This document shows, one piece after another, positions 417 to 22,148 of a DNA stretch of 22,872 bases. The stretch spans positions 1-22,872 of IMG/VR virus record IMGVR_UViG_3300043427_002277; one strand, written 5' to 3'. Every line of letters begins with the position of its first letter. The stretch's first letter is position 1. Position numbers and translations under genes: made by a program. The DNA is from a virus. Below the pieces are notes generated by a model that had not been told where the DNA came from, did not search any database, and was given only the letters and a program-made list of their open reading frames with translations.

Positions 417-2285
417 GTGCCAGCCAGGACGAAGGGTAATCGCTACGCGGACTCGGCCTCCGTCCGATCGCTCGGCCTCCTCCATAACAGTGAGATTCTC
501 ACAAAGTTAAGAAAGCGCTCAAATTCAAGCTTTGATGTTCACGGCACCGAGATCAAGATTCTTGAGGATCTACTGCCATATCAGAGAGACTTTGTCCAAG
601 ACTTTGAAAATAAGTACGTCGGCTTTTGTGGAGGGTATGGTTGCGTTGCTGGTGAAACGCTGATAAATGGCGTGCCAATTAAGGAGCTAACTAGCACGCC
701 TATCAAGGTTCGGACGCTTTGCGGTGAAGCAGTTGCTACGCCTGCGTACAAGAAAGGAGTTGCTCCACTTTATCGGGTTCTGACTTCATTAGGGCAAGAA
801 GTTCTGGTAACGAAAGATCATAAGTTTCTTGGAGTATCTGGTTGGCGGAAGCTTGAGCATCTTGACATTGGCGATTACATTGCAGTGCGAGATGGTCGTA
901 ATTACAGAAATTACAAGTCTCCATTGCGAACGTTTTTAGCCGGCCTAAGTGGCGCGATGGGCGGGGAATGCAACGTCGTCACCTCCCTAAATCAGCATGG
1001 CTGGGCAGCAATTGAAGCGATTGAATACATCAGAACCGATGACTTTTATGATTTGCATGTTCCCGTCTGGAATCATTACGAGGCTCATGGAATCCTGCAC
1101 CATAACTCGGGCAAGACCCACAGCCTTGTTGCAAAGCAGCTGCTTCTATGTTTCCGCTCTCAGGGCTTTACGCATCTGTTCCTTGAGCCAACCATTCCGC
1201 TAATTGATGACGTTGCACTGCCTAAGTGGAATGAGATGCTTGAGCGATACAGCATCCCGCATACCTTTAAGGCGTCTCCCAGGCCAAGCTTTAAGCTTTT
1301 GCTTCCCGGTGGTGAAACACCAGTTCTTTTGCGCTCAATGGAAAACTATGAGCGACTAATTGGTGTAAACGCTGCAAGTATTGCGACTGACGAAACTGAC
1401 ACGACTAGGCCAGAAACTGCAGAAAAGGCGATGATCAAGCTTCAGGGTCGTGTTCGCGTAGGAAATTGCCCACAAATTGCAGCTGCATCTACGCCAGAAG
1501 GCTACGGCTGGATGTACACATTTTTTGAAGAGCAAAAAGCAGATAACAAAAGACTTTATCGTGGAAAGTCAGAAGACAACCCGTATCTTGATCCAGGTTT
1601 TGTTGAAGACCTTAAAACAAAATATCATCCACAGCTTATCAAGGCCTATCTTAATGGCGAGTTTGTCAACCTTGAGTCAGCCACTGTCTTCTACGAGTTC
1701 AACAGACAGCTGCATACTACTGGTGTTTTTGTGCCGGAACGCAATGAGCGAATTGTGTTTGGCGCTGACTTTAACGTAGGCCAGTGTCACGCAGTTTACG
1801 GAGTTGTAAGGCCGGGTCAAGCCGGTCAGCAGCTTCACTGCTTTGCTGAATCAAAAGTTTCAGACACCTTTGCCTTGGTGGCTCATCTTCGTGAGAAATA
1901 CCCCCACCACCTCTCCAGTGGATTGATCACCTGCTATCCAGATGCAAGCGGCAAGCATGACTCGACATCCTCTACGCAAAGTGATCACGAAATTCTTGCT
2001 TCAGCCGGTGTTCAGGTTGTTGCAGAACGTCGCAACCCACCAATTGCGGAAACCCTGGCGCACGCCAATGTTCACATGCACCGTGGCCTGATTCTACTGA
2101 ATCCAACCACCTGCCACAATGCAATCAGCTCTGCTGAGCGCTGGTCTTATGACAGCAAGACGCTAAAGCCAAGCAAAGGTGGTGCAACAGATTATTCACA
2201 CGCTGGCGACGCATTGCGCTATCTGATCTGGCAGGTATTCCAGCGTGCAGGCATGAGGGCTGGTCATGGACCTCGCTGGAGATGA
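417..2285 (+). CDS. terL: Large terminase subunit, interrupted by an intein
   Basis: This is the ATPase/nuclease motor that packages DNA into the prohead through the portal. The 622-residue precursor contains a 155-residue intein at residues 76-230, so the spliced protein is 467 residues, normal for TerL. After splicing, the halves restore the Walker A loop GGYG-SGKT. The Walker B/catalytic pair is D325-E326 in IATDETD (precursor numbering). RNase H-like nuclease acidic residues are visible as D451 (FGADFNVG), D509 (CYPDASG) and D598 (HAGDALRY). The start is GTG at 417, directly after an in-frame TAG at 414-416 and 6 nt behind GGGAA, so no longer version is possible. A promoter lies 31 nt upstream. 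No small terminase subunit is recognised; it may lie upstream of the window. Confidence 0.95.
   Translation: MPARTKGNRYADSASVRSLGLLHNSEILTKLRKRSNSSFDVHGTEIKILEDLLPYQRDFVQDFENKYVGFCGGYGCVAGETLINGVPIKELTSTPIKVRTLCGEAVATPAYKKGVAPLYRVLTSLGQEVLVTKDHKFLGVSGWRKLEHLDIGDYIAVRDGRNYRNYKSPLRTFLAGLSGAMGGECNVVTSLNQHGWAAIEAIEYIRTDDFYDLHVPVWNHYEAHGILHHNSGKTHSLVAKQLLLCFRSQGFTHLFLEPTIPLIDDVALPKWNEMLERYSIPHTFKASPRPSFKLLLPGGETPVLLRSMENYERLIGVNAASIATDETDTTRPETAEKAMIKLQGRVRVGNCPQIAAASTPEGYGWMYTFFEEQKADNKRLYRGKSEDNPYLDPGFVEDLKTKYHPQLIKAYLNGEFVNLESATVFYEFNRQLHTTGVFVPERNERIVFGADFNVGQCHAVYGVVRPGQAGQQLHCFAESKVSDTFALVAHLREKYPHHLSSGLITCYPDASGKHDSTSSTQSDHEILASAGVQVVAERRNPPIAETLAHANVHMHRGLILLNPTTCHNAISSAERWSYDSKTLKPSKGGATDYSHAGDALRYLIWQVFQRAGMRAGHGPRWR
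642..1106 (+). other. Mini-intein in the TerL Walker A loop
   Basis: The element is 155 residues, in frame with terL. It begins with Cys (CVAGETLING, block A), has a block B with TKDHKF, and ends in a C-terminal Hint motif (DFYDLHVPVWNHY) and HGILHHN followed by Ser as the +1 extein residue. The junction is G-Y-G/C at the N side and N/S-G-K-T at the C side, so the insertion splits the P-loop exactly. The linker between the splicing halves is only a few dozen residues and contains no LAGLIDADG or HNH motif, so this is an endonuclease-free mini-intein. Packaging ATPase activity should depend on splicing. Confidence 0.92.
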
Positions 2286-2440: not shown

Positions 2441-4144
2441 ATGGCTATCGACGTACCGAATTCAATCATCCTTAGTTCGGACGATCTGCCGATTCCCTTT
2501 GAGCGGCGCGAGCCCGAAACAGAAAAGGTATATTCCGAGGTTACGGATGTAGACAGCTACTCGATTGACCAAGCGGAGCAGGTTGCAAGGATCGTGCCGA
2601 TCAAGTTCTGCACACTGCCTGAGTTCTATCTTGATGAAGCGATTAGCGATTACATTCCTCAGGACTTCCAGGAGCACCCCGACAGCTACAACGTTCGCAA
2701 AACGCGGGCAATGTCATGCTTCGAGCCTTTTTACTCTCACCTTGTTGACATCATCGTTGGCACTGCCCTGAGAAAGGGTGTCATCCTACCTCAGGAAATG
2801 CCATCTGAGTGGGAAGAATTCTTCAAGAATGCAAATCTTGAGGGAAAGTCAATTACTTCGTTTGCGAAAACGCTGTTTACTGAGGCGCTCAATGGTGGTA
2901 TTGCTGGCTTGATGGCTGAATACCCCAAGGTTGACGAGGCTGTTTCCAAGGTTCAGGCTCGTAGACGTGGATACCGCCCGTATTTTTCCATCATCAAGGT
3001 TGACGACATCCTGGACTGCAGGCACGACAACGGCCCTGTAACGATCAACGGCGAGACGTATTATCAGGCCCGTGTCACTTATCTTCGCATCAAATCCGAG
3101 ATCAGACGTGCAAGTGCTGTCAATGAGCACTATGAAGAAGTTGTGCCAACTGTCGTTGTTTACGACATCCCGGAGCAAGAGGATCCCGATCGACCTCGTC
3201 GTGTTCGCGTCAGAATCTACGAGAAAAACTTGACCGCAGGCAACAACTCCTACATCCTTTCGGAAGATAACATCTCGTATCTGTCCATTGACTATATTCC
3301 CTTCGTTCCCTGCTATGGCGGCAAGGAGGAGGCCTTCTGTCGCGCAAGACCACTGCTCTTTGACATTGCAAGACTGAATTTGCATCACTGGGCAACTTGT
3401 GCCGATCTTTCAGAAACGATTCACCTCAACTCCTCTCCGTTGCTGACTGGCACCGGTATCAGGCCTGACGAAGAAATTTATAGTGGCTCTGGTCGTAGCC
3501 TGTTTAGCCAAAACGAGCAAGCAAGATTTGGCATGATCTCCCCCGGCATGGATGGAGCCGAGACGACGCTGAAAGAGCTTGCAAGGATTGAAGCTTCGAT
3601 GGATCGCCTGGCCGCTATTGCAATGGCGCCTGGTAAAAGCCAGGTTGAATCTGGTTTCGCGAAGCTTCTTGATCGCTCGCAGTCTGATTCGCAACTTGCG
3701 GTGCTGGTTGGCTCACTGCAAGATTGCATCAACCGTGCCCTGTGGTATGCGTCTGGCTATGAGGCCAACAGCTACCCAAAGATTGAAATCAGCATTAGCA
3801 AGAACTTTATTCCTGCGAAGCTGCACAGCCAGCAGGTTATGTCGATCAACTCCCTTTACAAGGATGCTGAGGTTATCCCCATCGGTACCACGCTTGAAAT
3901 GCTGGAAGCCGGTGAAATGTTTGAGGGTGTCCATGGCTTCAATGTCAAGGCGCTGCTGGACAAGATCGGCCTGACCGGGAGCGAGATGCGCTCACAGGTG
4001 GCCGCACGGTTTGGCGGCGCCCCCCAGCCGAGTCGCGACCTGACGCCGGGAACGAATAACGTCCAGAGCGGGATCGAGCCATCCGCATCGGCCCCGATCC
4101 AGCGTGAGGCTGCCGAGGCCTCTTTTCAGGTAAGGGAAGCTTGA
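2441..4144 (+). CDS. Portal protein
   Basis: The portal forms the dodecameric ring at the capsid vertex through which TerL pumps DNA. This 567-residue protein lies directly after terL and before the scaffold, the standard position. Its size and general character fit a siphophage portal of the type grouped as DUF4055-like: an N-terminal region with YLDEAISDYIP and YNVRKTRAMSCFEPF, a central mixed alpha/beta region, a helical part with LARIEASMDRLAAIA, and a disordered Pro/Ser-rich C terminus (PSRDLTPGTNN). Family membership is recalled from pattern and not computed. It starts at ATG 2441 with a -10-like box 28 nt upstream. The scaffold promoter overlaps its last codons. Confidence 0.85.
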   Translation: MAIDVPNSIILSSDDLPIPFERREPETEKVYSEVTDVDSYSIDQAEQVARIVPIKFCTLPEFYLDEAISDYIPQDFQEHPDSYNVRKTRAMSCFEPFYSHLVDIIVGTALRKGVILPQEMPSEWEEFFKNANLEGKSITSFAKTLFTEALNGGIAGLMAEYPKVDEAVSKVQARRRGYRPYFSIIKVDDILDCRHDNGPVTINGETYYQARVTYLRIKSEIRRASAVNEHYEEVVPTVVVYDIPEQEDPDRPRRVRVRIYEKNLTAGNNSYILSEDNISYLSIDYIPFVPCYGGKEEAFCRARPLLFDIARLNLHHWATCADLSETIHLNSSPLLTGTGIRPDEEIYSGSGRSLFSQNEQARFGMISPGMDGAETTLKELARIEASMDRLAAIAMAPGKSQVESGFAKLLDRSQSDSQLAVLVGSLQDCINRALWYASGYEANSYPKIEISISKNFIPAKLHSQQVMSINSLYKDAEVIPIGTTLEMLEAGEMFEGVHGFNVKALLDKIGLTGSEMRSQVAARFGGAPQPSRDLTPGTNNVQSGIEPSASAPIQREAAEASFQVREA

Positions 4145-4175: not shown

Positions 4176-5024
4176 GTGCCCCCAGAACCGAACGCCGCAG
4201 AACTGACGATTGAGGAGCTTCAGCAGAAGCTTCAAGAAAGAGACAGCCAGCTTGCCGCCCTTGAGCGTGCAAAGATTGGCTTGCAGGCTGACCTTGTAAA
4301 GCGCAAGAACGTTGAGCGCCTTGCAAAAGCGGCTGGCATTGACCTGACAGCCGAGGACGCCGATGACCGGATTGCCGAACTGCTGAGCAGCGCCAAGAGC
4401 GAAAAGCAGCTCGCCAGTCAACCCCCTGCGCCACAGCAGCAGCCGCCGGCCCAGCCCCAGGCCCAAGGACAGCCGGATGGCGGTGGAACGCCCTCCAGTG
4501 CCGTGGAGGAGGCGATGAAGGTCCAGCTCTCGTCCCTGCAGAGTCAGATCGTCAAGATGGAAGAGCAGCTCAAGCAAGAGCGCAAGGAGAAGGAGGCAGA
4601 AAGACGCGCTCGTCAAGAAGAGTACAAAAAGTCTGTCGTCATTCAAGAATTGGATAAGGCAAAGTGCAATCGCTCTTCCCATGTCTATGCGCTACGTGGA
4701 AAGGAGTTTCGGCTTCTTGAGGATGGCGTTACTGTTGTCTTTGGGCCTGAAGAAAATCCGATCAATGTCGCTGATGGCATTGCTCAGATTGAGCAGGACG
4801 ACGACTACAGTATCTATTTCCCTGGCAATGTGCCAAGTGGGAGCGGGCTTCCCTCTTACCGCTCGTCCATGCCGACGACTGATAACCCATTTGCAAAATC
4901 AACTGCAAACGCTACGCGAGCGGCTGAGATCATCGGCCGAGATCGTTCGCTTGCAAAGCGGCTTGTGCAGCAGGCTCGCGCTCGTGGCGATCTTGACCCG
5001 ATTCTTGCTCGTGCAGTCAGTTGA
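4176..5024 (+). CDS. Capsid assembly scaffold protein
   Basis: Scaffold proteins direct prohead assembly and leave before or during packaging. This 282-residue protein has the expected make-up: an N-terminal coiled coil from about residue 11 (LTIEELQQKLQERDSQLAAL), a Gln/Pro-rich flexible linker near residues 84-105, a second charged coiled coil (about 110-150, MEEQLKQERKEKEAERRARQ), then a small C-terminal domain of the kind that contacts the coat protein. The C-terminal VVIQELDKAKCNRSSHVYALRG resembles the ends of other phage scaffolds. The start is GTG 4176, five nt after AAGAAG. The gene sits between portal and capsid-region genes. No serine-protease motif is seen, so it is not a fused maturation protease. 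Confidence 0.8.
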   Translation: MPPEPNAAELTIEELQQKLQERDSQLAALERAKIGLQADLVKRKNVERLAKAAGIDLTAEDADDRIAELLSSAKSEKQLASQPPAPQQQPPAQPQAQGQPDGGGTPSSAVEEAMKVQLSSLQSQIVKMEEQLKQERKEKEAERRARQEEYKKSVVIQELDKAKCNRSSHVYALRGKEFRLLEDGVTVVFGPEENPINVADGIAQIEQDDDYSIYFPGNVPSGSGLPSYRSSMPTTDNPFAKSTANATRAAEIIGRDRSLAKRLVQQARARGDLDPILARAVS

Positions 5025-5066: not shown

Positions 5067-5092
5067 AGCGTCCGCTTCGGCGGGCGCTTTTT
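5067..5092 (+). terminator. Strong Rho-independent terminator after scaffold
   Basis: AGCGTCCGC (5067-5075) pairs with GCGGGCGCT (5080-5088) across a TTCG tetraloop, giving 9 bp with one G-T pair, followed by five T's. It ends the portal/scaffold transcripts. Confidence 0.85.
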
Positions 5093-5096
5093 CATG

Positions 5097-5130: not shown

Positions 5131-6063
5131 TTGCATGAAACGGTGAAAAAGAACGTTCCCACTGATAAAGCGCTGTACGCTCGCGTCAAGGCGGAGGCAA
5201 AAAGAAAGTTTGCCGTGTATCCATGTGTGCCGCTTGACTCTTTTGCCATCACAAAGATGGGGTTAGCCAGTCATGAAGATATATTCCCAGGCGAAGAAAT
5301 ATTGGCTTATGATCGGGGCACTGGCGATTTGGTGTGGAGCGAGGTTGAGCATGTAAACTTTTACGAAAAAGCCCCACTACTGAGGCTCAGGAAAGCAGCA
5401 GGCTTTTCTCTTCTGTGTACGCCCGGCCACAAATGGGTCGTTGAAAGTAGGGCGAATAAAAATGGCAGAGATTTTACAAAAATGGTAGCAGCATCAGACT
5501 TGAATAGGCACCAAAATATAATTTGGTGTGGAAATCCGCTTGCAGGTCAGAGTGAGGGCTTAACAAAATATTGGTCAAATAAATGGTCAAAAAAAGATGA
5601 GTGGATTCACAGGGTTATTGCCATGACTCCACTGGAGAGAGAAGTTTTTCTTGCTTCTGCAATTATTTATGATGGGTGTGAACAGGGTAGGTCAAAAGTC
5701 AGGGAGGGTGGCATGACTTTTGCTTTTTCTCAAAAAAATATCAATCATTTTTGGGCAACAGTTTTAGCGGCATTTTGCAATGGGTATTATGTGTCTACAC
5801 ACAAAAAAAACAAAACCATGATGGGAGCGACGATAATAAGAGGCAAGAAATTTCATAGTACGCAAAATTTAATTAAAGAAGAGGCCGGCGCCGCCGCAGT
5901 CTGGTGCCCATCAACCAAGCATGAGACTTGGGTAATGGTTCAAGGGGGTGTTATCTGCGTAACTGGTAATAGCGCTTATGCTAATTCATGGCTTGTCCGC
6001 GAATACAAAAAGCGCGGTGGTGGCTACAGAGCACGGGATGTAAAGGGTCGTGGCAAAAAGTAA
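5131..6063 (+). CDS. Tiny basic phage protein carrying a large intein
   Basis: The 310-residue precursor is mostly intein (residues 32-280). Splicing would join MHETVKKNV...KRKFAVYP to SAYANSWLVREYKKRGGGYR..., giving a 61-residue, strongly basic protein. The motif YPSAYANxWLVxEYKKRGGGY is one I recall from short uncharacterised proteins widespread in tailed phages; it is reminiscent of DUF5872-type sequences, but I cannot confirm that assignment. The function is unknown; small size and charge suggest nucleic-acid binding or a minor virion protein. The start is probably TTG 5131; an in-frame GTG at 5143 is an alternative, and neither has a good Shine-Dalgarno. Its end overlaps the next gene by 14 nt. 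Confidence 0.75.
   Translation: MHETVKKNVPTDKALYARVKAEAKRKFAVYPCVPLDSFAITKMGLASHEDIFPGEEILAYDRGTGDLVWSEVEHVNFYEKAPLLRLRKAAGFSLLCTPGHKWVVESRANKNGRDFTKMVAASDLNRHQNIIWCGNPLAGQSEGLTKYWSNKWSKKDEWIHRVIAMTPLEREVFLASAIIYDGCEQGRSKVREGGMTFAFSQKNINHFWATVLAAFCNGYYVSTHKKNKTMMGATIIRGKKFHSTQNLIKEEAGAAAVWCPSTKHETWVMVQGGVICVTGNSAYANSWLVREYKKRGGGYRARDVKGRGKK
5224..5970 (+). other. Intein with degenerate endonuclease region in the tiny basic protein
   Basis: The element is 249 residues. Block A begins CVPLDSFAITKMG with Cys1, block B is CTPGHKWVVE with the T-x-x-H motif, block F is VWCPSTKHETWVM, and the C end is GGVICVTGN followed by Ser. The penultimate residue is Gly where most inteins have His; other phage inteins with a TGN end are known to me. 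The middle contains FLASAIIYDGCEQ, which aligns with a single LAGLIDADG motif at about five of nine positions, including the catalytic Asp-Gly. The following FSQKNINHF is also typical of such domains. The insert looks richer in A/T (many AAAA runs, TTGGTCAAATAAATGG) than the flanking coding sequence. Confidence 0.88.
6023..6030 (+). promoter_or_regulatory. Possible -10-like box inside the preceding gene
   Basis: GGCTACAGA, with TACAGA at 6025-6030, starts 25 nt before the GTG at 6050. It also encodes G-Y-R of the overlapping protein, so its resemblance to the other boxes may be coincidental. Confidence 0.25.
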
Positions 6064-6313
6064 GAAGCCAAGGGGCGGCCTTGGCCGTTGGTTTGCCGAA
6101 AAGTGGGTTGATGTAAAAACCGGCAAACCTTGTGGCAGGCAAGAAGGCGAAAAGCGTCGCAGCTATCCGGCCTGCAGGCCATCTAAGCGCGTATCAGCCT
6201 CAACGCCGAAAACCTCAGGCGAACTATCAAAAAAAGAGAAGGATAAGTTTAAGCGCGAAAAGACAAGCGCTAAACGAATTGACTATCAGCATAAGCGCAA
6301 AAAGCGTCGCTAG
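6050..6313 (+). CDS. Small basic KWVD/CGR/YPACRP phage protein
   Basis: This protein of 87 residues is very rich in Lys and Arg. The conserved-looking elements, in order, are GGLGRWFAEKWVDVKTGKPC, GR, then RRSYPACRPSKRVS, then a Lys-rich tail ending RKKRR. Proteins with KWVDV...CGR...YPACRP occur widely in tailed phages, often as short genes near capsid genes; to my knowledge the function is not established. The two Cys (in PCGR and PACRP) and the basic tail could suggest a metal-assisted nucleic-acid binder, which is inference only. The GTG start at 6050 overlaps the end of the previous gene, pointing to translational coupling. Its TAG stop is part of the next box. Confidence 0.7.
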   Translation: MAKSKKPRGGLGRWFAEKWVDVKTGKPCGRQEGEKRRSYPACRPSKRVSASTPKTSGELSKKEKDKFKREKTSAKRIDYQHKRKKRR

Positions 6314-12605: not shown

Positions 12606-12632
12606 TAGCGCAAGTGACCTTGAGTGCTTGCC

Positions 12633-15600
12633 GTGGCTACCAGCAGGGAGACAATTGAAATTGTTCTTTCTGGTCTTGATAAAATCACGGAGCTTAAAAA
12701 TAGACTGGTATCTCTATCAGAAGTAGCAAGTTCGGTAGAAGCGTCTATTGAGGGTATAGGAGAGAGGGTCAAGGGGCTTGGCGTTGAAGCTAGGACGTTT
12801 GCCGGAAATACACGTACCCTAAGAAGAACCGCAAGAATCACGAGAGCAACAGCCGAAAATCCAGCAACTGGATCCGGGCTACCTCCACGCGAGGCTGGAG
12901 TAATGCGCCAGCGCCTCAATCAAATGGCAGGCGTTCTTGATGCTGAGCTTGCCTCAAGAAAGCAAGATCTTCGTGATGTTCTTTCCCGTAGGCAGCGCTA
13001 CAAGCAATTCCAGTCAACACTTGAAGCGGAGCAAGGAAGACTCAATAAAGCAACCGCAACCGCTAGGAACGAGCAAGAAAAAACAGCAAGAGCACTTCGC
13101 ACACAAAGAGAGGACATACTTGCCGGGGCGAGGGAAACCGGAGCAAGAGCACGAAGAAGGGGCACGAGTACGCTTATTGAGCGTCGTAGGGCGCAGGCTC
13201 AGAGGCTTCGTTCAGGCCCTGACCTTCTGTCAAATCTTGTACCAGTTGCCAATGAGATAGACAGAAGGCTTGAGTTTACGGAAAGCAGATTACGAGAGCT
13301 GGATAGAGCTTCAAGAGTGCTCGCAAGGACTGTTCGCGCTGCCAATCCAGAAGCTGGACCACGAGAAATCAGGGGAATTGTTGAAAGAGAAAGGCGCGTA
13401 CTTGACAGTCAGCGCCGGGCCATTGCAACTGAACAGGGAAGACTTATTGAGCAAAGAAAAGAACTTAATAGGAATGACGCTGGCCGAAGGACTCAGTTTG
13501 ATCAGCGCAGGAGGCTCAACGAAAGAATGGATGCCCTACAAAGGGCGGGCGGACTTGGACTTGCAAGTCGATCCGCAAGATTGCCAGAAAGCACAAGAGC
13601 TGATATTAGAAAAAGATTTGCCCAGGCGTCTGATTTGGCGGCAGCAGGAAACCTTGAAGGAGCGAAGGCAATATATGCGGTTATTGAAAAAACTGTGTCA
13701 GCAAAAGAGCGTCAACTAAAACTTGATAAGGAAATTACGAGGGAAAATGAGAAAGGATCAAAAGCACTTGTCTCCCTTGAGCGACAAAGACAAGCAAATC
13801 TGACGCTAGATGCAAAGAATTTGCGCAGTATTGAGCTGCAGCAAAGGAATCTCGCAGATCTTGCTGGCCAGGGCGCAGGGAATCTTCCCCTGTTTCAGCG
13901 TGCTCAATCTAATTTTCAACGACTTCCTGGTCTTCAGCAAGCTGGCCAGTACGATGAGTTCGCCAGAGTTCTCGCAGGTGTAACCAGCGACGTAAGGGAG
14001 GCGCGTAAAGATCTAAAAGCCACAGAAAAAAGCCTTGATCGCCAGCTTGATCAGCGCCTTGCTATTGAAAAGGCTCAGGAAAGACTGCAAAGCCTTGAGG
14101 AAGCCGGCGCCACTGGCCCGAGATTCAAGAAAGCCGAGTCTTTGGCCGGCAAACTTCCGACACTTGCGGCAGGGGGGAATGCGGGAGAATTCACGAGAAC
14201 CAACAAACAGCTGGGCGCCCTCCTCTCATCAGAAGAAAGGTCTATTCGTCAATCGAAAAAGTCAGAGCAGCAATCCAGAAGCCGCGCAAATGCCGAGAAG
14301 GCAGTTATTGATTCCTATGAAAAGCTTGCTTCCGCTGTTGAGGCACTTGAAACCGCAAATCAAAGAGCAGCGGACATGGCCGCAGGAATATACAACAACG
14401 ATGATATAGATAAACTCACAAAAAGCTTTGAAGAACTTGGTCGGGTTGATATTGCCAGGTCAAGCAAGAGAGAGCTTCAGGATTTCCAGAGGGAGCTTGA
14501 CAAAGCAAGAGAAAAGGCGGAAAGACTTGAAAAGTCAATTTCTCTTCAGAATCGTGGATTAAAGCTTGAGCAAGACTTGCTCGGCCTTCAGGCGCAGGGT
14601 GTTGACATTTCTGGCACACTGCTGCCACTCCAGCAAGCACTTAACAAAAACCGAGAGAATGGCGCAGATATCTCCCTGAGGGATCTGAACAATCTTGAGA
14701 ATATTGTCAAAAGATCTGGCGAGCTTGTTGGTATTGATCGAGCGAGAATTGCTACTGGCCAAAAAGTAGAGCAACAGCTTGATCGTCAAAACGATCAGAC
14801 ACTGGCAATCGAAAAGCGTCAGAAAAAGCTGGCCGACCTTCAAGCCGCTGGCGTGAAAGGCCCTGCAATTGGAAGGGCTCAAAAACTCGTAGACAAACTC
14901 CCTGAACTTGCGGCCAAGGGTCCAGCTGGTGCTAGAGAGTTTAGGAGGATTGACAAACAGGCTGCACAAGCTCTTGGCTTTGCAACTCCTGGGCGCGGAC
15001 CCGGCGCAGGCAGAGCCAAAACCCCCGAGCAAATTGCAAGAAGCTTTGCGCGAGAACTTAGCTCGGCCGAGGTCGCAGAGCAAAACCTTATTGGACTATC
15101 AAAGAAAAATGTAGACGCCTCGTCGCAACTGGTTTCAATTCAAGACGCGATCAATCAAGCAAAGAAACTTGGAACCAGTATCTCCGAGAAAGACCTTGAG
15201 ATCCTCAAGGATCAGGTTGCCACTGCTCGCAATTTCGTCAAGGTTGAGAACGCAAGACTTGCCAACGCGCAAAAAGCTTCAAGCCTGAAAGCCGTCAAGG
15301 CTGCAAGTGAGAACCGCCTCCCTTCATTGCGGCGCGACAGCCTGACATCAAACCTGATTGAACTCGGCCGTGCAAGAACGGCTGGCAACGTTTTCCGTGG
15401 CGGTCGTAGCGGCGAGCGTGCTTTCAGTGATGCGATTGCTGCGTTCAATGCAGCGACCTCCCCTGCCCCTCGCGAGCAACTGCTTTCGCCTGGCAGATCT
15501 GGTGGCTTGCAGTCCCTGACACGGCGTGGCGTACCGATTATCGCTGGAGCTGGCGCCGAAGCCGGAAATGCAGGCCAAAACGTCGTAGATACGTTTGCAA

Positions 15601-18600
15601 GCAAGCTTTCTGCTGGGGCTGGTAGGATTCTTGCAGCTGGTATTGAACTTGGAACCGCAAGCGCAAAGGGAATAAGAAAAGCCTTAAAAATGAATAGCCC
15701 GTCTATTGTGATTATCAAGATAGTCCTTGATATTATCAATAGCTGGGTTAAGACGATGGATGCTGCCATTCCTCAAGTTGAGGCGGTGTCCAAGAAGCTT
15801 GCAGATGCCTCTGCGCAGGCGATACAGGGACCCGCTTCTGCGGAATTTGGTGGCTTGCCGAAAAAAGCTGTTAACACAATTACGCCTAAAACCTCCTCTT
15901 CGTATATTGATACAGCAGCGACAACACTGTTAAACCTTGGAATTGACAGAAGCAAGCTGGGAAGTATTAGCGATACCTCTATGTTTGAAATGGCGAGGGG
16001 AATTGTCTCGCAAAAAGGCGCCTATCCGATTATTGAAAATATTCCTGGCATTGACTACACGATGCTCAGCAATGAAAGGGCAATGGGCAGGGCCGGCGAG
16101 CAAACACAAATTGCCAAGAAAGCTCTTCTCGATTTTTACGGTATCAACGAAAAAGGCTTGCCAGAAGCTCGCGCTGGAGCCACCAGCAGCACAGAAGCCG
16201 CTGCCGCAAATGTTGCAGCTGCCGAGCAGGAAGCAAGACAACTCGGACAGGCTATCTCTGAACTCGTGGCCGGTTTCAGCTCTTTGAAGGGGCTGGTTCA
16301 GGCTGCCGCCGATATGGCAAAGCCTGGCAGCGATCGGTCAAGCGGGGCGACAGGAATTCCTGGTGTTGACAGAGACTTCGACAAGATAGTTGATACAAAT
16401 CTTGGAAGAACAACAGAGGGTGGATTGCGCAGCGAGAATATCGCTCAGATACTTGGTGCGCCAGGAAAAGCTTCTGAAATTGAGGGAATTATTCGGTCCA
16501 AGGGGCAAATTCCAGATTTCGACAAATATACAGGCGACCTAAATAAAGCTTTCGATCAGTTTAACTCCGGCTCCGGCGGCAAAGATCTTGATCAGCTCAG
16601 AAAGTTGTATGCGGAATTTTACGGAATAGCATCGACCTTCTCGCCAGAACTTCAAAGAGTGATTGGCGCAATTGATTCTGCGACAGCGAAAAGTGAGCAA
16701 GTTGCACAGGGGATCAGGGATCTCGCTGCCCCACTCTCCGGCGCTCAGTCCACTCAGATTGCCGACCCGTGGAAAGATGTCGCAGCGTCTGCAGCAGAAG
16801 ACTTTGCTGCTGCCTTTAGGGGAGGCCCTGCAGCAGGCTCATCGCAAATCGCAGACCCGTGGGAGGAAGCCTTCAGCTCTGCTGCAAGCCGGATAACCGA
16901 TACAGCCGACTCTGCTTCTTTAAGTGGTGCCAGAGGCCTCAAATCTGCAGCCGATAATCTCTTTGACAGCCTTTCCGGTGCGATTGATTCTGCCGCAGGC
17001 CCGTCTGGCTCTGGCTCTGCTGGTGGCCCGCGCCCACCATCACCTCCATCCGGCGGCAATGGTCCTGGAGATCTCGGCTCTCGTGCTGAAGCTGCTCGCG
17101 GCGATGCTGACAGGCTTCTCGGCCTGGCTGACATTGCAGATTTCTCAAAAGCGACGAGCAAGGAGCTTCAGATCTTTGCAAACATTCTCTCTGAAACGAG
17201 GGATACAGTTCTTCGCACCGATAAAGCTTTTGAGGGGCTCAACAAAGCTGCGATCAGGGCCGAGGACGAGCTGGTCCGTCGCGACCCCAACTCTGACTTC
17301 CTGACCCGCAGATTCGGCCAGAGAGGCGGCCAGGCGGTCGGGGAAGGCCTGATCGGTGGTGCATTCCCCCTCCTGTTCGGCCAGGGCGGTGGAGCGGCTG
17401 CTGGCGGCGGCCTGGGCGGCTTCTTCGGTGGCCTGGCTGGCGGCACGCTGGGCTTCGGTCTGTCACTGGCTGGCACAGCGATCGGCAGCCAGGTGGATCT
17501 GCTTGCCCAGGCTGCACAGGACACTGGAAACATCCTTCGCGATCTAGTTGGCAACTTTGATCAGATCAAGGAGGCCGGCCTACTGGCAAGCAGGAGTCAA
17601 GAGAAGTTTATTGAGAGGCTGATCGAGGGTGGCAACAAGACACTGGCCTATGCAGTAATCCAAGACACTCTCAACAAAAAGCTCGGCAGCGATGGAGCCG
17701 TAAAGCTGAGAGCTGCCGCTGACGCTGGTGATCGACTCAATCGCGCAATTGCAGAGCTTGGCCTGCAGATGCAAATCTTCATCGCCGGCCCACTTACCGC
17801 ATTGCTGAATGCAATGGCAACGGTATTTGAAAGAGGAAGTCTTGAATCCGCAATTCAGCGAGAGCTTGGCCCAGACGGCAAAGCATCGCCAGAGGCGAAG
17901 GCGGCTGCAAAAGAGCGGCTGGACGCAGCTACTGCAGCCGGTGGTGGCATCGAAAATGCAGGAAAAATACTTGGTGAAGTGCTTTCAGGAAAATCAAAAG
18001 GATCTCTGTTTGCCAACGTTGGCACCGAGGAGCTGAAAAACATATTTTCGGATCTTGTCAGCTCTGTTCCGGCTGGCCCTCAAACAGAGGATCAAAGAAG
18101 GCAGCAGGTCATCAATGATGCAGAAACCAGGCGAGACCTGGCGCAAAGAAGGCTTGACGTAACGACAAAATTAAATGAGCCGACCGAAATCTTTAACGGA
18201 CTTCAGCGGCAGCTTATTTCTGCAAGACAGGAGCGCGAAGATATTGAGCGCCAAGGGTTTGAGCTGCGTCGCGACTACGAGAGGCAGATCGAAGACATTC
18301 GCATTCAGGTTGCCGATCGCGTCACGCAGATTGAAACAGAAAACCGCCAAAAAGAACTTGAGATCCTGGTCAAGCAAGGGGAAGTCAGAAAACAGCAGTT
18401 CGAGAATGCTGCAACTGCGCTGCGTGGCGCCCTTGCTGGTGATCCACTTGCGGAAAGCCTTGCAGACGCCGTAACCACCTATCTTGGTGCCCAGCTTTCA
18501 GCACAAGATCAGATTGAGCAGCGCCGCAAGCAGTTTGAAATTGAAATAAGTAATCAGCAGCTTGAGACCGAGAAGTTTAAGCTTGAGGTTGGTCGCACAC

Positions 18601-21600
18601 TGTCAAGGCTTAATACTGACACCGCCGAAAAGGTTGCAGAAATCAATCGCGGAATTGCGCGTCGAAACGAGGAAGCGGCCCTCAATAACTTCAACTTTGA
18701 AAAGAAAATAGCCGAGCTTAGGATCAGGACGATCAACCAAGACCTCCTCGTTACGAAAGCGCAGGAAGAAGGTGATATTCAGGCTGCCCGCAGTCAGATC
18801 CAGAATGGAGGCCTTTCCCCAGAAACCAATAAGTTTCTTGAAGATTCGATTGCAGCGAGACAACAGAGAATCGCCCAGATTGACAAGGGCATTGCAGCAT
18901 TCGAGGCTCAGATTGCAAAAGTAAATCAGCTGCAGCCACCGCCAAGAATAAGTAGTGTATCGGCCCCCGCCACTAGATCTGTCAGCTTTGCCGGTGTCAA
19001 TCAGGGTATCGCTCGCGCCAAGCAACTTCGCGAGCAGCTACAGGGCATTGAAGAAGACCTGCTGGACAACATTAAAACTGACAACCTTGAGGCTTTTGCG
19101 AATCGGCTTCGCGAGATTGGCTCTAAGTCCTTCTTTGAGGTTAATAATTCACTGAAAGCGGCAAGAGAGGAAGCTGCTCTTGCAAGTGGTGACATTGGTC
19201 CATCGCTTAAAGCAATTACAGACTCTTACGATCAGTTCTTTGCTCTCGCAGCAAGTAAGGGGGTTGCAATTGAGCCGCCACTGCGCGAGTACATTATTCA
19301 GATCCGAGATGCGCAGCTTGCGTTTGAAAAAATCAAGCCGAGCATGGAGTTTTATACCTCCAATCTCCAAGATCTAACCAACCAGACGAAGCAAGCTCGT
19401 GCCGCTATTGATGAATTCCTGCTGCCCACCAAGGCCTATGACAGGATTCTTGCTCAGATCAATGCTCGTGGCGGGCTTGGTATTAACCCAGAGGACGAGG
19501 AGCGACTGCTCAGACAGGCAAAAGCGCTTGATGAGCTGAACGCCAAGCTGAAAGTGCTTAATGCGCTCAAGGATGTAGCCTCCGGCTGGACAGACTCTTT
19601 CATCCAGCTGAATAAAGAGCTGCTTAAAGGTGGAGACCTTCTTGAGTCGCTCCAGAGTTTTGCCGAAGGCTTTGCTGAGCGCACTCTTGACGTTGTTCTT
19701 GAGTTTGCCCTCAGGCCAATTGAGGAAAATCTCTTCAAGAATCTGTCCGACTTCTTTGGTATAAAGGCTCCAGAGGATCCCGCGCTCCAGCCGATTCAAG
19801 AAACAGCAAAAAATACAGAAAAGATCTACAATCTTGCAAAGGAAACATTTGCTGGACAGACAGGCGTAAAAGTCGTACCGGAAACGCCTGTTTCGCAAGC
19901 GCCGGCCAATTCGATTGTGCCAGGCCCTGCAGCAACAAGGATTGGTGGTCCACTGGGCGAACTACTTGCAAGAATCAGAAGCGCAGAGGGTGGCTACACA
20001 AGCGTCAATAGAGGAATTGCTGGCGATACGCGAGGGGGAATTCCTGGCCTCGACAAGATGACGGTTGCGCAGGTCATGAGCCTGCAGAGAAACCAGGGAT
20101 ACAACGCTGTAGGCGCCTATCAATTTATACCAGGAACCCTTGAAGGCGCTGTCAATCGCAGTGGGATAGACCGCAACTCAAAGTTTGACCGAGCCACCCA
20201 AGACAACCTTGCTCTTGAGCTGATTCTTGGCGGCGTTAAGCGCCCTGCTCTGTCCAGTTATCTATCCGGTAAAAGCAATGATATTGACGCCGCCGAAAAA
20301 GATGCACTGCTTGAGTGGGCTGGGCTGAAGTCCGCCAAGGGGGGCGGCGCATATGACGGAATAGCTGGAAACAGGGGAAGTGTCACCATCAGGGACCTGC
20401 TGCCACTGGTCCGTCAGCAACTGGCCGGACAGTCTTCGACTACTGCTGCAAACTCTGGCTTCCTGGTTCCCGGCTCACCTCTTGTTGCTGAGCCGGCGCC
20501 ACCTCCCCCCGTCCGGCGCAAGCTGATTCCGGCTGATTTACTTGGTGGCAATGGGCGGCCCATTGATGTCAACGTTGTTGACGCTCCCTGGATGAATGCG
20601 GCTGATCAGGGTGGCGCGTGGGGCCTCGGTGAATCACCAGAGATGGCCAACGGTCGTTACACACCTGGCTGGATTACAGTTCCTGGCAAGGGCCGCAAAT
20701 GGAGAACAGCAGAGGGAGAGTACAAGGATAGGCGTCCTGTGTCCGATGTGATCATGGGATGGTCGCAGGGGGCAATTGATAACAGCGACTATGTTCAGGG
20801 TATGGGGGATGTTAATATCCCGAATTCCCGCAGAACGACAGTCTCGCTCAACAAGGGGAGATTTGCTGCTGCTACACCTGGATTTGTTGCGGGAGCCATA
20901 GTTGACGAGCTTGCTCAAACTGGACTCGATGCCTTCCTCGGATACATCGAATACCTGAAGCGACAGCACGGTCCCGCAGCATTTCCATCTTCCGTAAGGC
21001 AACCGGAAGCCACAAATCGCAAGGGTCCCAGCATGTTGCTTGATCCCATGCAGTCTCCGGGATCATTGATTCGCCAGCCCAGGCTGACTGACAACACCAA
21101 TCAGCCAGCCCCTGTCAGCATCGTTGATGCTCCGGCCTTGATGGCATCTGGCCTTAAGGGTCCAAGCCAGGCCTACCCAATCCCCGCGTCCCAGATGCAG
21201 CCTGGCCCGCCTGTTCCTGGTCAGACCATCAAGCTTGGCGTTGACCCCCTCGTTGAACAACAGCAGCAGTCGCCTGTTACGCCAGCCGCCAATCAAGCGG
21301 CTGAGTCACTTGGCAACCTTGACGAGATTGTAAGAAAAACAGTCGATGGCTTTACTGGTTTCGGCGAAAGCATGTCCGAATTTGCTACTAAAACCACCGA
21401 TTCCGTTACCAAGTTTCAGCAGATCGTTGGCACCGGGCTTCAGGCAATTAGCGGCATTGCAATGGGGATCGGCGGCGCTCAGATGATCCGCAAGGGTGGC
21501 GCTTACAACACCCTGATGGGTGCCGCTTCCATCTTCGGCTCTATCAGCTCAATCACGGGCATGTTCGGCACGGGTGGTCCGCTGTCTGGTCTGTTCGGCA

Positions 21601-22148
21601 GAAAGGCTCCATCTGCCACTGCCAGCAACTTCATGATGCCCCAGTTGACCGGTGTCCCAGGCGGCGCCAGAGCCCTTGGCGGCCCTGTCTACGAGGGCAT
21701 GGACTACCTCGTCGGTGAGCAGGGGCCAGAGGTCATCAGGATGGGCGCCAACGGCACTGTGGTACCTGCTGATGAGCTGTACATCCCGGGCATGGATGAC
21801 ACGGAATCTGATGCGCCTCCGATTGGTCGTTACGCCCGCCGTGCATCAAGCAGCTCCGAAAGCAGCGAAATGCAAGATGGCGAGACCATCTACACCGGCA
21901 ATTACGGGCGAGCCGTTCCGTATCAGCGCAGCGAGAGCACACGCGAAATTGACAGGCTAGAGCGGATTACGTCAAATCCGAAAGAGCTGCCTCCGATTAA
22001 GTACGAAACCACTCGTGTCAACGAATATGATTTCGTCACACCCGAGCAGCTTGAGGCGTCCAACATGCGGACCGCTAAGATGGCCAGAAACCAGACAATT
22101 CGCGAACTTGCTGATAGCATGAAGACACGCAAGCGTCTGGGGCTCTGA
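12633..22148 (+). CDS. Giant tail tape measure protein with embedded lysozyme-like domain
   Basis: The tape measure fills the tail tube, sets its length and is ejected during infection. At about 3,171 residues it is very long. The first third (to about 15300) is coiled coil with degenerate tandem repeats. A Gly/Ala-rich hydrophobic segment is at about 17335-17515, more coiled coil runs from 18100 to 19250, a lysozyme-like domain covers 19950-20420, a second hydrophobic stretch lies near 21430-21600, and the C-terminal GGPVYEGMDYLVGEQGPEVI motif (21680-21750) is a hallmark of tape measures. The start could be GTG 12624 or 12633; 12633 gives MATSRETIEIVL and better spacing from the -10 box. Arg codons are largely AGA/AGG in the first half, unlike capsid and tube genes. 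Confidence 0.93.
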   Translation: MATSRETIEIVLSGLDKITELKNRLVSLSEVASSVEASIEGIGERVKGLGVEARTFAGNTRTLRRTARITRATAENPATGSGLPPREAGVMRQRLNQMAGVLDAELASRKQDLRDVLSRRQRYKQFQSTLEAEQGRLNKATATARNEQEKTARALRTQREDILAGARETGARARRRGTSTLIERRRAQAQRLRSGPDLLSNLVPVANEIDRRLEFTESRLRELDRASRVLARTVRAANPEAGPREIRGIVERERRVLDSQRRAIATEQGRLIEQRKELNRNDAGRRTQFDQRRRLNERMDALQRAGGLGLASRSARLPESTRADIRKRFAQASDLAAAGNLEGAKAIYAVIEKTVSAKERQLKLDKEITRENEKGSKALVSLERQRQANLTLDAKNLRSIELQQRNLADLAGQGAGNLPLFQRAQSNFQRLPGLQQAGQYDEFARVLAGVTSDVREARKDLKATEKSLDRQLDQRLAIEKAQERLQSLEEAGATGPRFKKAESLAGKLPTLAAGGNAGEFTRTNKQLGALLSSEERSIRQSKKSEQQSRSRANAEKAVIDSYEKLASAVEALETANQRAADMAAGIYNNDDIDKLTKSFEELGRVDIARSSKRELQDFQRELDKAREKAERLEKSISLQNRGLKLEQDLLGLQAQGVDISGTLLPLQQALNKNRENGADISLRDLNNLENIVKRSGELVGIDRARIATGQKVEQQLDRQNDQTLAIEKRQKKLADLQAAGVKGPAIGRAQKLVDKLPELAAKGPAGAREFRRIDKQAAQALGFATPGRGPGAGRAKTPEQIARSFARELSSAEVAEQNLIGLSKKNVDASSQLVSIQDAINQAKKLGTSISEKDLEILKDQVATARNFVKVENARLANAQKASSLKAVKAASENRLPSLRRDSLTSNLIELGRARTAGNVFRGGRSGERAFSDAIAAFNAATSPAPREQLLSPGRSGGLQSLTRRGVPIIAGAGAEAGNAGQNVVDTFASKLSAGAGRILAAGIELGTASAKGIRKALKMNSPSIVIIKIVLDIINSWVKTMDAAIPQVEAVSKKLADASAQAIQGPASAEFGGLPKKAVNTITPKTSSSYIDTAATTLLNLGIDRSKLGSISDTSMFEMARGIVSQKGAYPIIENIPGIDYTMLSNERAMGRAGEQTQIAKKALLDFYGINEKGLPEARAGATSSTEAAAANVAAAEQEARQLGQAISELVAGFSSLKGLVQAAADMAKPGSDRSSGATGIPGVDRDFDKIVDTNLGRTTEGGLRSENIAQILGAPGKASEIEGIIRSKGQIPDFDKYTGDLNKAFDQFNSGSGGKDLDQLRKLYAEFYGIASTFSPELQRVIGAIDSATAKSEQVAQGIRDLAAPLSGAQSTQIADPWKDVAASAAEDFAAAFRGGPAAGSSQIADPWEEAFSSAASRITDTADSASLSGARGLKSAADNLFDSLSGAIDSAAGPSGSGSAGGPRPPSPPSGGNGPGDLGSRAEAARGDADRLLGLADIADFSKATSKELQIFANILSETRDTVLRTDKAFEGLNKAAIRAEDELVRRDPNSDFLTRRFGQRGGQAVGEGLIGGAFPLLFGQGGGAAAGGGLGGFFGGLAGGTLGFGLSLAGTAIGSQVDLLAQAAQDTGNILRDLVGNFDQIKEAGLLASRSQEKFIERLIEGGNKTLAYAVIQDTLNKKLGSDGAVKLRAAADAGDRLNRAIAELGLQMQIFIAGPLTALLNAMATVFERGSLESAIQRELGPDGKASPEAKAAAKERLDAATAAGGGIENAGKILGEVLSGKSKGSLFANVGTEELKNIFSDLVSSVPAGPQTEDQRRQQVINDAETRRDLAQRRLDVTTKLNEPTEIFNGLQRQLISARQEREDIERQGFELRRDYERQIEDIRIQVADRVTQIETENRQKELEILVKQGEVRKQQFENAATALRGALAGDPLAESLADAVTTYLGAQLSAQDQIEQRRKQFEIEISNQQLETEKFKLEVGRTLSRLNTDTAEKVAEINRGIARRNEEAALNNFNFEKKIAELRIRTINQDLLVTKAQEEGDIQAARSQIQNGGLSPETNKFLEDSIAARQQRIAQIDKGIAAFEAQIAKVNQLQPPPRISSVSAPATRSVSFAGVNQGIARAKQLREQLQGIEEDLLDNIKTDNLEAFANRLREIGSKSFFEVNNSLKAAREEAALASGDIGPSLKAITDSYDQFFALAASKGVAIEPPLREYIIQIRDAQLAFEKIKPSMEFYTSNLQDLTNQTKQARAAIDEFLLPTKAYDRILAQINARGGLGINPEDEERLLRQAKALDELNAKLKVLNALKDVASGWTDSFIQLNKELLKGGDLLESLQSFAEGFAERTLDVVLEFALRPIEENLFKNLSDFFGIKAPEDPALQPIQETAKNTEKIYNLAKETFAGQTGVKVVPETPVSQAPANSIVPGPAATRIGGPLGELLARIRSAEGGYTSVNRGIAGDTRGGIPGLDKMTVAQVMSLQRNQGYNAVGAYQFIPGTLEGAVNRSGIDRNSKFDRATQDNLALELILGGVKRPALSSYLSGKSNDIDAAEKDALLEWAGLKSAKGGGAYDGIAGNRGSVTIRDLLPLVRQQLAGQSSTTAANSGFLVPGSPLVAEPAPPPPVRRKLIPADLLGGNGRPIDVNVVDAPWMNAADQGGAWGLGESPEMANGRYTPGWITVPGKGRKWRTAEGEYKDRRPVSDVIMGWSQGAIDNSDYVQGMGDVNIPNSRRTTVSLNKGRFAAATPGFVAGAIVDELAQTGLDAFLGYIEYLKRQHGPAAFPSSVRQPEATNRKGPSMLLDPMQSPGSLIRQPRLTDNTNQPAPVSIVDAPALMASGLKGPSQAYPIPASQMQPGPPVPGQTIKLGVDPLVEQQQQSPVTPAANQAAESLGNLDEIVRKTVDGFTGFGESMSEFATKTTDSVTKFQQIVGTGLQAISGIAMGIGGAQMIRKGGAYNTLMGAASIFGSISSITGMFGTGGPLSGLFGRKAPSATASNFMMPQLTGVPGGARALGGPVYEGMDYLVGEQGPEVIRMGANGTVVPADELYIPGMDDTESDAPPIGRYARRASSSSESSEMQDGETIYTGNYGRAVPYQRSESTREIDRLERITSNPKELPPIKYETTRVNEYDFVTPEQLEASNMRTAKMARNQTIRELADSMKTRKRLGL
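13506..15285 (+). repeat. Degenerate protein repeats in the tape measure
   Basis: Two unit types are visible in translation. Type A ('IEK-Q--L--L--AG--GP--KRA--L--KLP-LAA-G---EF') occurs near 13506-13710 (weak), 13818-13994, 14052-14238 and 14796-14977. Type B ('LI-L--K-VD-S--L--IQ-A-N-----G--IS--DL--L---V--') occurs near 14544-14760 and 15069-15285. A and B alternate in the later part (A-B-A-B), with an A-to-A distance of about 744 nt and a B-to-B distance of 525 nt. DNA identity is low, so these are old duplications. Confidence 0.6.
19950..20420 (+). other. Lysozyme-like domain within the tape measure
   Basis: The translated segment contains LLARIRSAEGGYTSVNRG, with a candidate catalytic Glu encoded at 19986-19988, then VGAYQFIPGTLEGAV near 20111-20150 and DRATQDNLALELIL near 20190-20230. 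The order 'I---EG-Y----RG ... GAYQF-P-TL ... Q--LA--L' is the lysozyme/transglycosylase superfamily pattern found in phage tape measures and structural lysozymes. It would locally open peptidoglycan when the tape measure is ejected. Confidence 0.75.

Follow-up and report, generated by a model that had tools for sequence, protein, structure and literature searches.

A mobile intein with a homing-endonuclease-like domain very probably resides in a tiny stand-alone phage protein encoded by the 22,872-nucleotide stretch of viral DNA analysed here (hereafter the window). In the explanation that we favor, the whole ORF would be translated, and the intein, through its Hint domain, would fold, excise itself and join Pro27 to Ser28, giving a basic beta-alpha-alpha-beta protein of about 57 residues. 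The endonuclease-like domain would most likely cut the YPSAYAN site where a co-infecting phage lacks the intein, which would then be copied in by repair. The intein would be mainly a selfish element, kept because its target motif YPSAYAN hardly varies.

The intein-bearing ORF and its intein-free relatives

ORF 5131-6063, on the plus strand, comprises 310 open codons and was divided as follows (L001 being one of the closest intein-free relatives):

5131, plus strand: TTG, alternative start of the N-extein, adding 4 residues
5143..5223, plus strand: N-extein, 27 residues, start GTG; 93% identical to L001
5224..5970, plus strand: intein, 249 residues, Cys1 to Asn249; same-site alignment, AlphaFold model (pLDDT 87) and Hint fold
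5971..6060, plus strand: C-extein, 30 residues from SAYAN, stop codon at 6061-6063; 83% identical to L001

The splicing blocks A (CVPLDSFAITKMG), B (CTPGHKW), F (VWCPSTKHETWVM) and G (CVTGN/S, where the slash marks the junction, here and below) are all present, with C1, T66, H69, N249 and Ser+1 in place; Asn249 ends at nt 5970 and is followed directly by Ser+1. In the predicted structure (AlphaFold, pLDDT 87), a LAGLIDADG-like domain interrupts a Hint fold, and the model matched solved inteins of classes 1 and 3 at Z 15-18, with a best score of 17.7, which excludes chance. Pfam returned Hint matches to the window intein below threshold only, and phmmer with this single intein found no match in the PDB. 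The same intein is present in L084, which comes from a separate assembly and, over 8,074 bp, is 99.7% identical with 24 mismatches; this excludes an assembly artefact. The G+C content of the intein (0.43) is lower than that of the exteins (0.50), itself lower than that of the window (0.53). When the flanks are joined, they match positions 1-47 of Pfam DUF5872 (PF19197) with an E value of 7e-10 and 39.9 bits against a gathering cut-off of 27.5, while the interrupted ORF reaches 18.4 bits, below this cut-off. A 249-residue intein had been proposed for this ORF in an earlier note made from the sequence alone; flank joining, the fold match and the second assembly now confirm that it is real. The same note described a host of about 61 residues. 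The small size stands, as stand-alone homologues have 50-90 codons, but the figure itself is probably too high, since orthologues begin with MKKN or VKKN, which makes GTG 5143 the likely start and gives a spliced host of about 57 residues (61 from TTG 5131).

The empty site was found in close relatives. In L001 and L002, the host gene is uninterrupted, with residues 1-27 ending at nt 2590 and the C-extein starting at 2591. The flanks are joined without loss or gain, within a conserved portal-to-capsid synteny, which bears out the suggestion that intein-free homologues would read straight across YPSAYAN. Compared with the window, L001 and L002 have the same gene order and are 92% identical in the portal, 89% in the ORF that follows it downstream (4176), 94% in the C-terminal half of DUF5872, 93% in ORF 6337 and 95% in the major capsid protein (identified by PHROG 247). 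Both host halves are also directly adjacent in L003 to L009. The closest relatives of the window host are all empty, and the nearest inteins (46-53% identical) are located in another host subtype: the window host is of the WL subtype, whereas the hosts of the inteins in L148, L149 and L155 are of the WA subtype. At the sequence level, this mismatch and the empty sites in close relatives point to a horizontal gain of the window intein.

Recurrence of the intein and its inserted domain

A pattern scan (KFxVYP then Cys, read in frame) located inteins at this junction in other phages. The intein alignment, used as a query in its turn, yielded 126 relatives, of which 80 were kept and their junctions read. 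A related intein interrupts exactly YP/SAYAN in about 40 viral contigs, so the search for further inteins at this site, which the earlier note had recommended, was productive. Three of these contigs carry 138-residue mini-inteins that lack the inserted domain, start with CLP and differ in block B sequence:

L110, 8234-8647: mini-intein
L132, 1722-2135: mini-intein
L137, 1954-2367: mini-intein

In at least 17 contigs, a related tiny domain (WPSAYA/SGALVKCRK) is interrupted by a related intein, with the junction shifted downstream by four residues; at this second site, L187 (2501-3334) is more extreme still, with an intein of 278 residues and a stand-alone host of only some 44. The second-site domain scored 18.3 and 15.2 bits against DUF5872, below the cut-off of 27.5, and is therefore described as a resemblance only. 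Other members of the family were found in portal-like, phosphoesterase-like and terminase-like proteins, these host types being judged from the extein sequences. Among isolates, a family intein is annotated in the DNA polymerase I of phi92-like coliphages. One phosphoesterase-like protein (L219) seems to hold a second related intein (GHYHKFDH/CVPLTS...TGN/CYPREV) after position 3277, 3' of the first.

When 47 inteins were placed in a tree, a strongly supported branch set apart the second-site group, and another the other-host group. For the first-site group, such a branch appeared in the best tree but was weakly supported (68/29). The window intein grouped with those of L148, L149 and L155, also from small stand-alone hosts (100/100). 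No isolate in 50,697 phage records had this intein in DUF5872. Empty-site isolates exist, and cultured phages with an intein-free homologue include Synechococcus phage S-BM3 and Roseobacter phage CRP-2. In bacterial genomes, N-SAYAN-x-W had a single match, short and irrelevant; L083, one of two viral matches, was also discarded as irrelevant. Our searches of the open-access intein literature turned up no report of a YP/SAYAN insertion site. These alignments and junctions mark the YPSAYAN region as a hot spot that inteins have targeted repeatedly, at two different positions.

The domain missing from the mini-inteins was delimited approximately by this absence and by secondary structure:

5537..5859 (approximate), plus strand: inserted endonuclease-like domain, intein residues ~105-212

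Relative to the mini-inteins, the insert amounts to about 105 residues and contains one LAGLIDADG-like helix (FLASAIIYDG). This motif is degenerate, although D/E150 and G151 are present in all 47 inteins compared. Pfam LAGLIDADG models gave no match in the window intein, and the polymerase intein of phi92-like phages matched LAGLIDADG_3 below threshold (E 0.11). The intein model also aligned with endonuclease-bearing inteins, such as TliVMA over 232 residues (Z 16.7). In ten pairs of relatives from the intein family, a set outside which the window copy falls, dN/dS was 0.04-0.11 in the endonuclease-like domain, similar to the 0.04-0.13 of the splicing domain. These low values argue for purifying selection on an endonuclease-like domain that would be functional in the family.

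The DUF5872 host gene

Three points go beyond what had been noted earlier: the host corresponds to the N-terminal half of DUF5872 alone, the gene that follows encodes the C-terminal half, and the intein family uses two insertion positions. The downstream gene is:

6050..6313, plus strand: C-terminal half of DUF5872, separate overlapping gene, 87 aa; PF19197 positions 48-113, E 3e-16, 60.3 bits

The two halves overlap by 14 nt in the window, and such a pair, overlapping or adjacent, is kept in most related loci with a short first ORF. In several related phages, the second gene has an independent start after the first stop codon, which indicates two genes split from each other and not a single product of frameshifting. 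The Pfam family DUF5872 is a single protein, yet separate N-half and C-half genes occur in many phages. Upstream, a terminator-like hairpin with a T run (window 5073-5094, plus strand) lies between ORF 4176-5024 and the intein-bearing gene.

Intein-free homologues are abundant, with at least 120 stretches in one scan. Host ORFs at the 193 sites examined mostly have 50-90 codons from stop to stop, and intein-free L-type homologues usually consist of a stand-alone ORF of this size. In many phages, larger proteins contain the same domain as a fusion (for example T4-GC_119 beside the terminase small subunit, cyanophage S-BM3). The insertion had been thought to split the most conserved motif of the protein, and V-YPSAYAN is indeed invariant in 41 diverse homologues, an invariance that partly reflects how they were chosen, as the majority came from a scan in which portions of the motif were held constant. 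The AlphaFold model of the host (pLDDT 89) is a beta-alpha-alpha-beta domain with the P/S insertion point just before the second helix. No sequence match to this domain was found in the PDB and the best Foldseek E value was 5, which is no proof of a new fold; matches among viral structures include the DUF5872 protein of a giant algal virus. Its place among head genes and its basic charge weakly suggest a virion or DNA-associated role. It is plausible, as the earlier note suggested, that this protein is essential: homing requires a DNA target that is conserved and a host that still works once spliced, and both would fit a protein that the phage needs.

Splicing route and comparison with known inteins

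Eight positions were invariant in 50 of 50 aligned inteins: C1, T66 (B:7), H69 (B:10), W71 (B:12), C228 (F:4), T247 (G:5), G248 and N249. The alignment scan that supplied members favored W71 and C228, while Cys1 and T247 were not selected. The family therefore combines traits of two splicing classes. The Cys, Ser or Thr expected at position 1 of class 1 inteins is a Cys in all 50, and the WCT triad of class 3 (B:12, F:4, G:5) is complete in every one of them as well. Known class 3 inteins (MchDnaB1, MsmDnaB1, AceL NrdHF) share this triad (MCT in AceL) and the Hint fold, but they are defined by the absence of a position-1 nucleophile (PMC7891396, PMC3196547); as Cys1 is invariant here, we did not file the family under class 3. 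Class 1 inteins with a Cys at F:4 are known (PMC3196547). Since Cys1 never varies although it was not selected by the scan, these residue patterns favor class 1 splicing, most likely beginning at Cys1, and the strictly conserved Cys228 of block F may assist or even be the true first nucleophile.

The latter route, in which the first attack on the N-terminal junction would come from Cys228, with Cys1 left as a relic or a helper, seems to us possible but doubtful. Besides the complete triad, it draws on the class 3 AceL NrdHF intein (6zgq), which is both the best structural match (Z 17.7) and the best PDB profile match, and which likewise lacks the His at G:6 (PMC7891396), where the window intein has Gly instead of the usual penultimate His. 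However, class 3 and class 1 inteins match the AlphaFold model about equally (Z 17.7 vs. 17.2), a lead within the tie margin. The existence of class 1 inteins with Cys at F:4 and the definition of class 3 also weigh against this route, and a dispensable Cys1 should drift rather than persist in all 50 sequences.

The other alternatives are weaker. The intein could regulate the host protein by conditional splicing, as known for other inteins, instead of being purely selfish. The persistence of mini-inteins without endonuclease at YP/SAYAN agrees with such a role, which is nevertheless improbable given that most close relatives do without the intein and that the family keeps the endonuclease-like domain under selection. 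It is quite unlikely that the true host is a full, and not tiny, DUF5872 protein, produced by a frameshift from the intein ORF into the ORF that overlaps its end. Both ORFs together cover DUF5872 with their 14-nt overlap and the Pfam model spans both in one protein, but in related phages the second ORF starts after the first stop or out of register with it (ATG post-stop in L031, ATGA overlap in L043), junction lengths and frames vary, and the first half is fused to other proteins in many phages. A frameshift fusion with ORF 6050 was set aside because of these independent starts and variable junctions. Least probable of all, the intein may be decaying or non-splicing, with a host that is interrupted or served by another copy. 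The pseudogene intein Arth_1007 of Arthrobacter FB24, whose exteins total only 66 residues, is a precedent for tiny exteins (PMC3196547), but it is dead, without catalytic residues and with unrecognisable exteins that have no relatives. By contrast, the window intein has all catalytic positions intact in an open ORF and belongs to a family with low dN/dS, and its host is conserved and intact, with exteins that match intein-free orthologues.

The closest named relative of the window intein is the DNA polymerase I intein of phi92-like coliphages (Justusliebigvirus/Phapecoctavirus, e.g., PaulScherrer bas60_0044), which is about 30% identical over all 249 residues and shares the length class, Cys1, the block B Trp, a WCP block F and the TGN end. 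It differs by its large replication enzyme host, a Cys at +1 and a clearer LAGLIDADG motif (FLEGFLIADG). The mycobacteriophage RDF intein (Bethlehem gp51), likened here by description and not by sequence, is also a phage class 1 intein with a penultimate Gly and splices well, in a large host protein (PMC5050341). Relatives of the window family also occur in phosphoesterase-like hosts. Inteins in the P-loop of terminase large subunits (PMC5050341) similarly interrupt an invariant motif, but of a large ATPase, whereas the window host is tiny with no recognisable enzyme domain. The window has one of these too:

642-1106, plus strand: second intein, in the TerL P-loop (GGYG/SGKT), 155 aa, class 1 type, HHN end

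The TerL homologue of L031 joins both flanks exactly (TerL residues 75 and 231 being adjacent), so that two inteins of different kinds share a single phage genome. Further downstream, 12624-22148 (plus strand) is one 3174-residue ORF, probably the tape measure protein, and a stretch near its C-terminal part resembles a lysozyme-like domain by eye.

As a rule, inteins are looked for in large enzymes, where they interrupt ATP-binding or catalytic motifs. The family described here has repeatedly entered a tiny basic domain instead, one that is very widespread among phages and that giant algal viruses have as DUF5872. Its choice as a target suggests that YPSAYAN is probably the functional core, and the domain thus merits further study. 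Within the family, natural inteins with two candidate first nucleophiles are available, which would allow a direct test of the origin of class 3 splicing, and with natural hosts of 44-57 residues, splicing could be easily followed by mass spectrometry.
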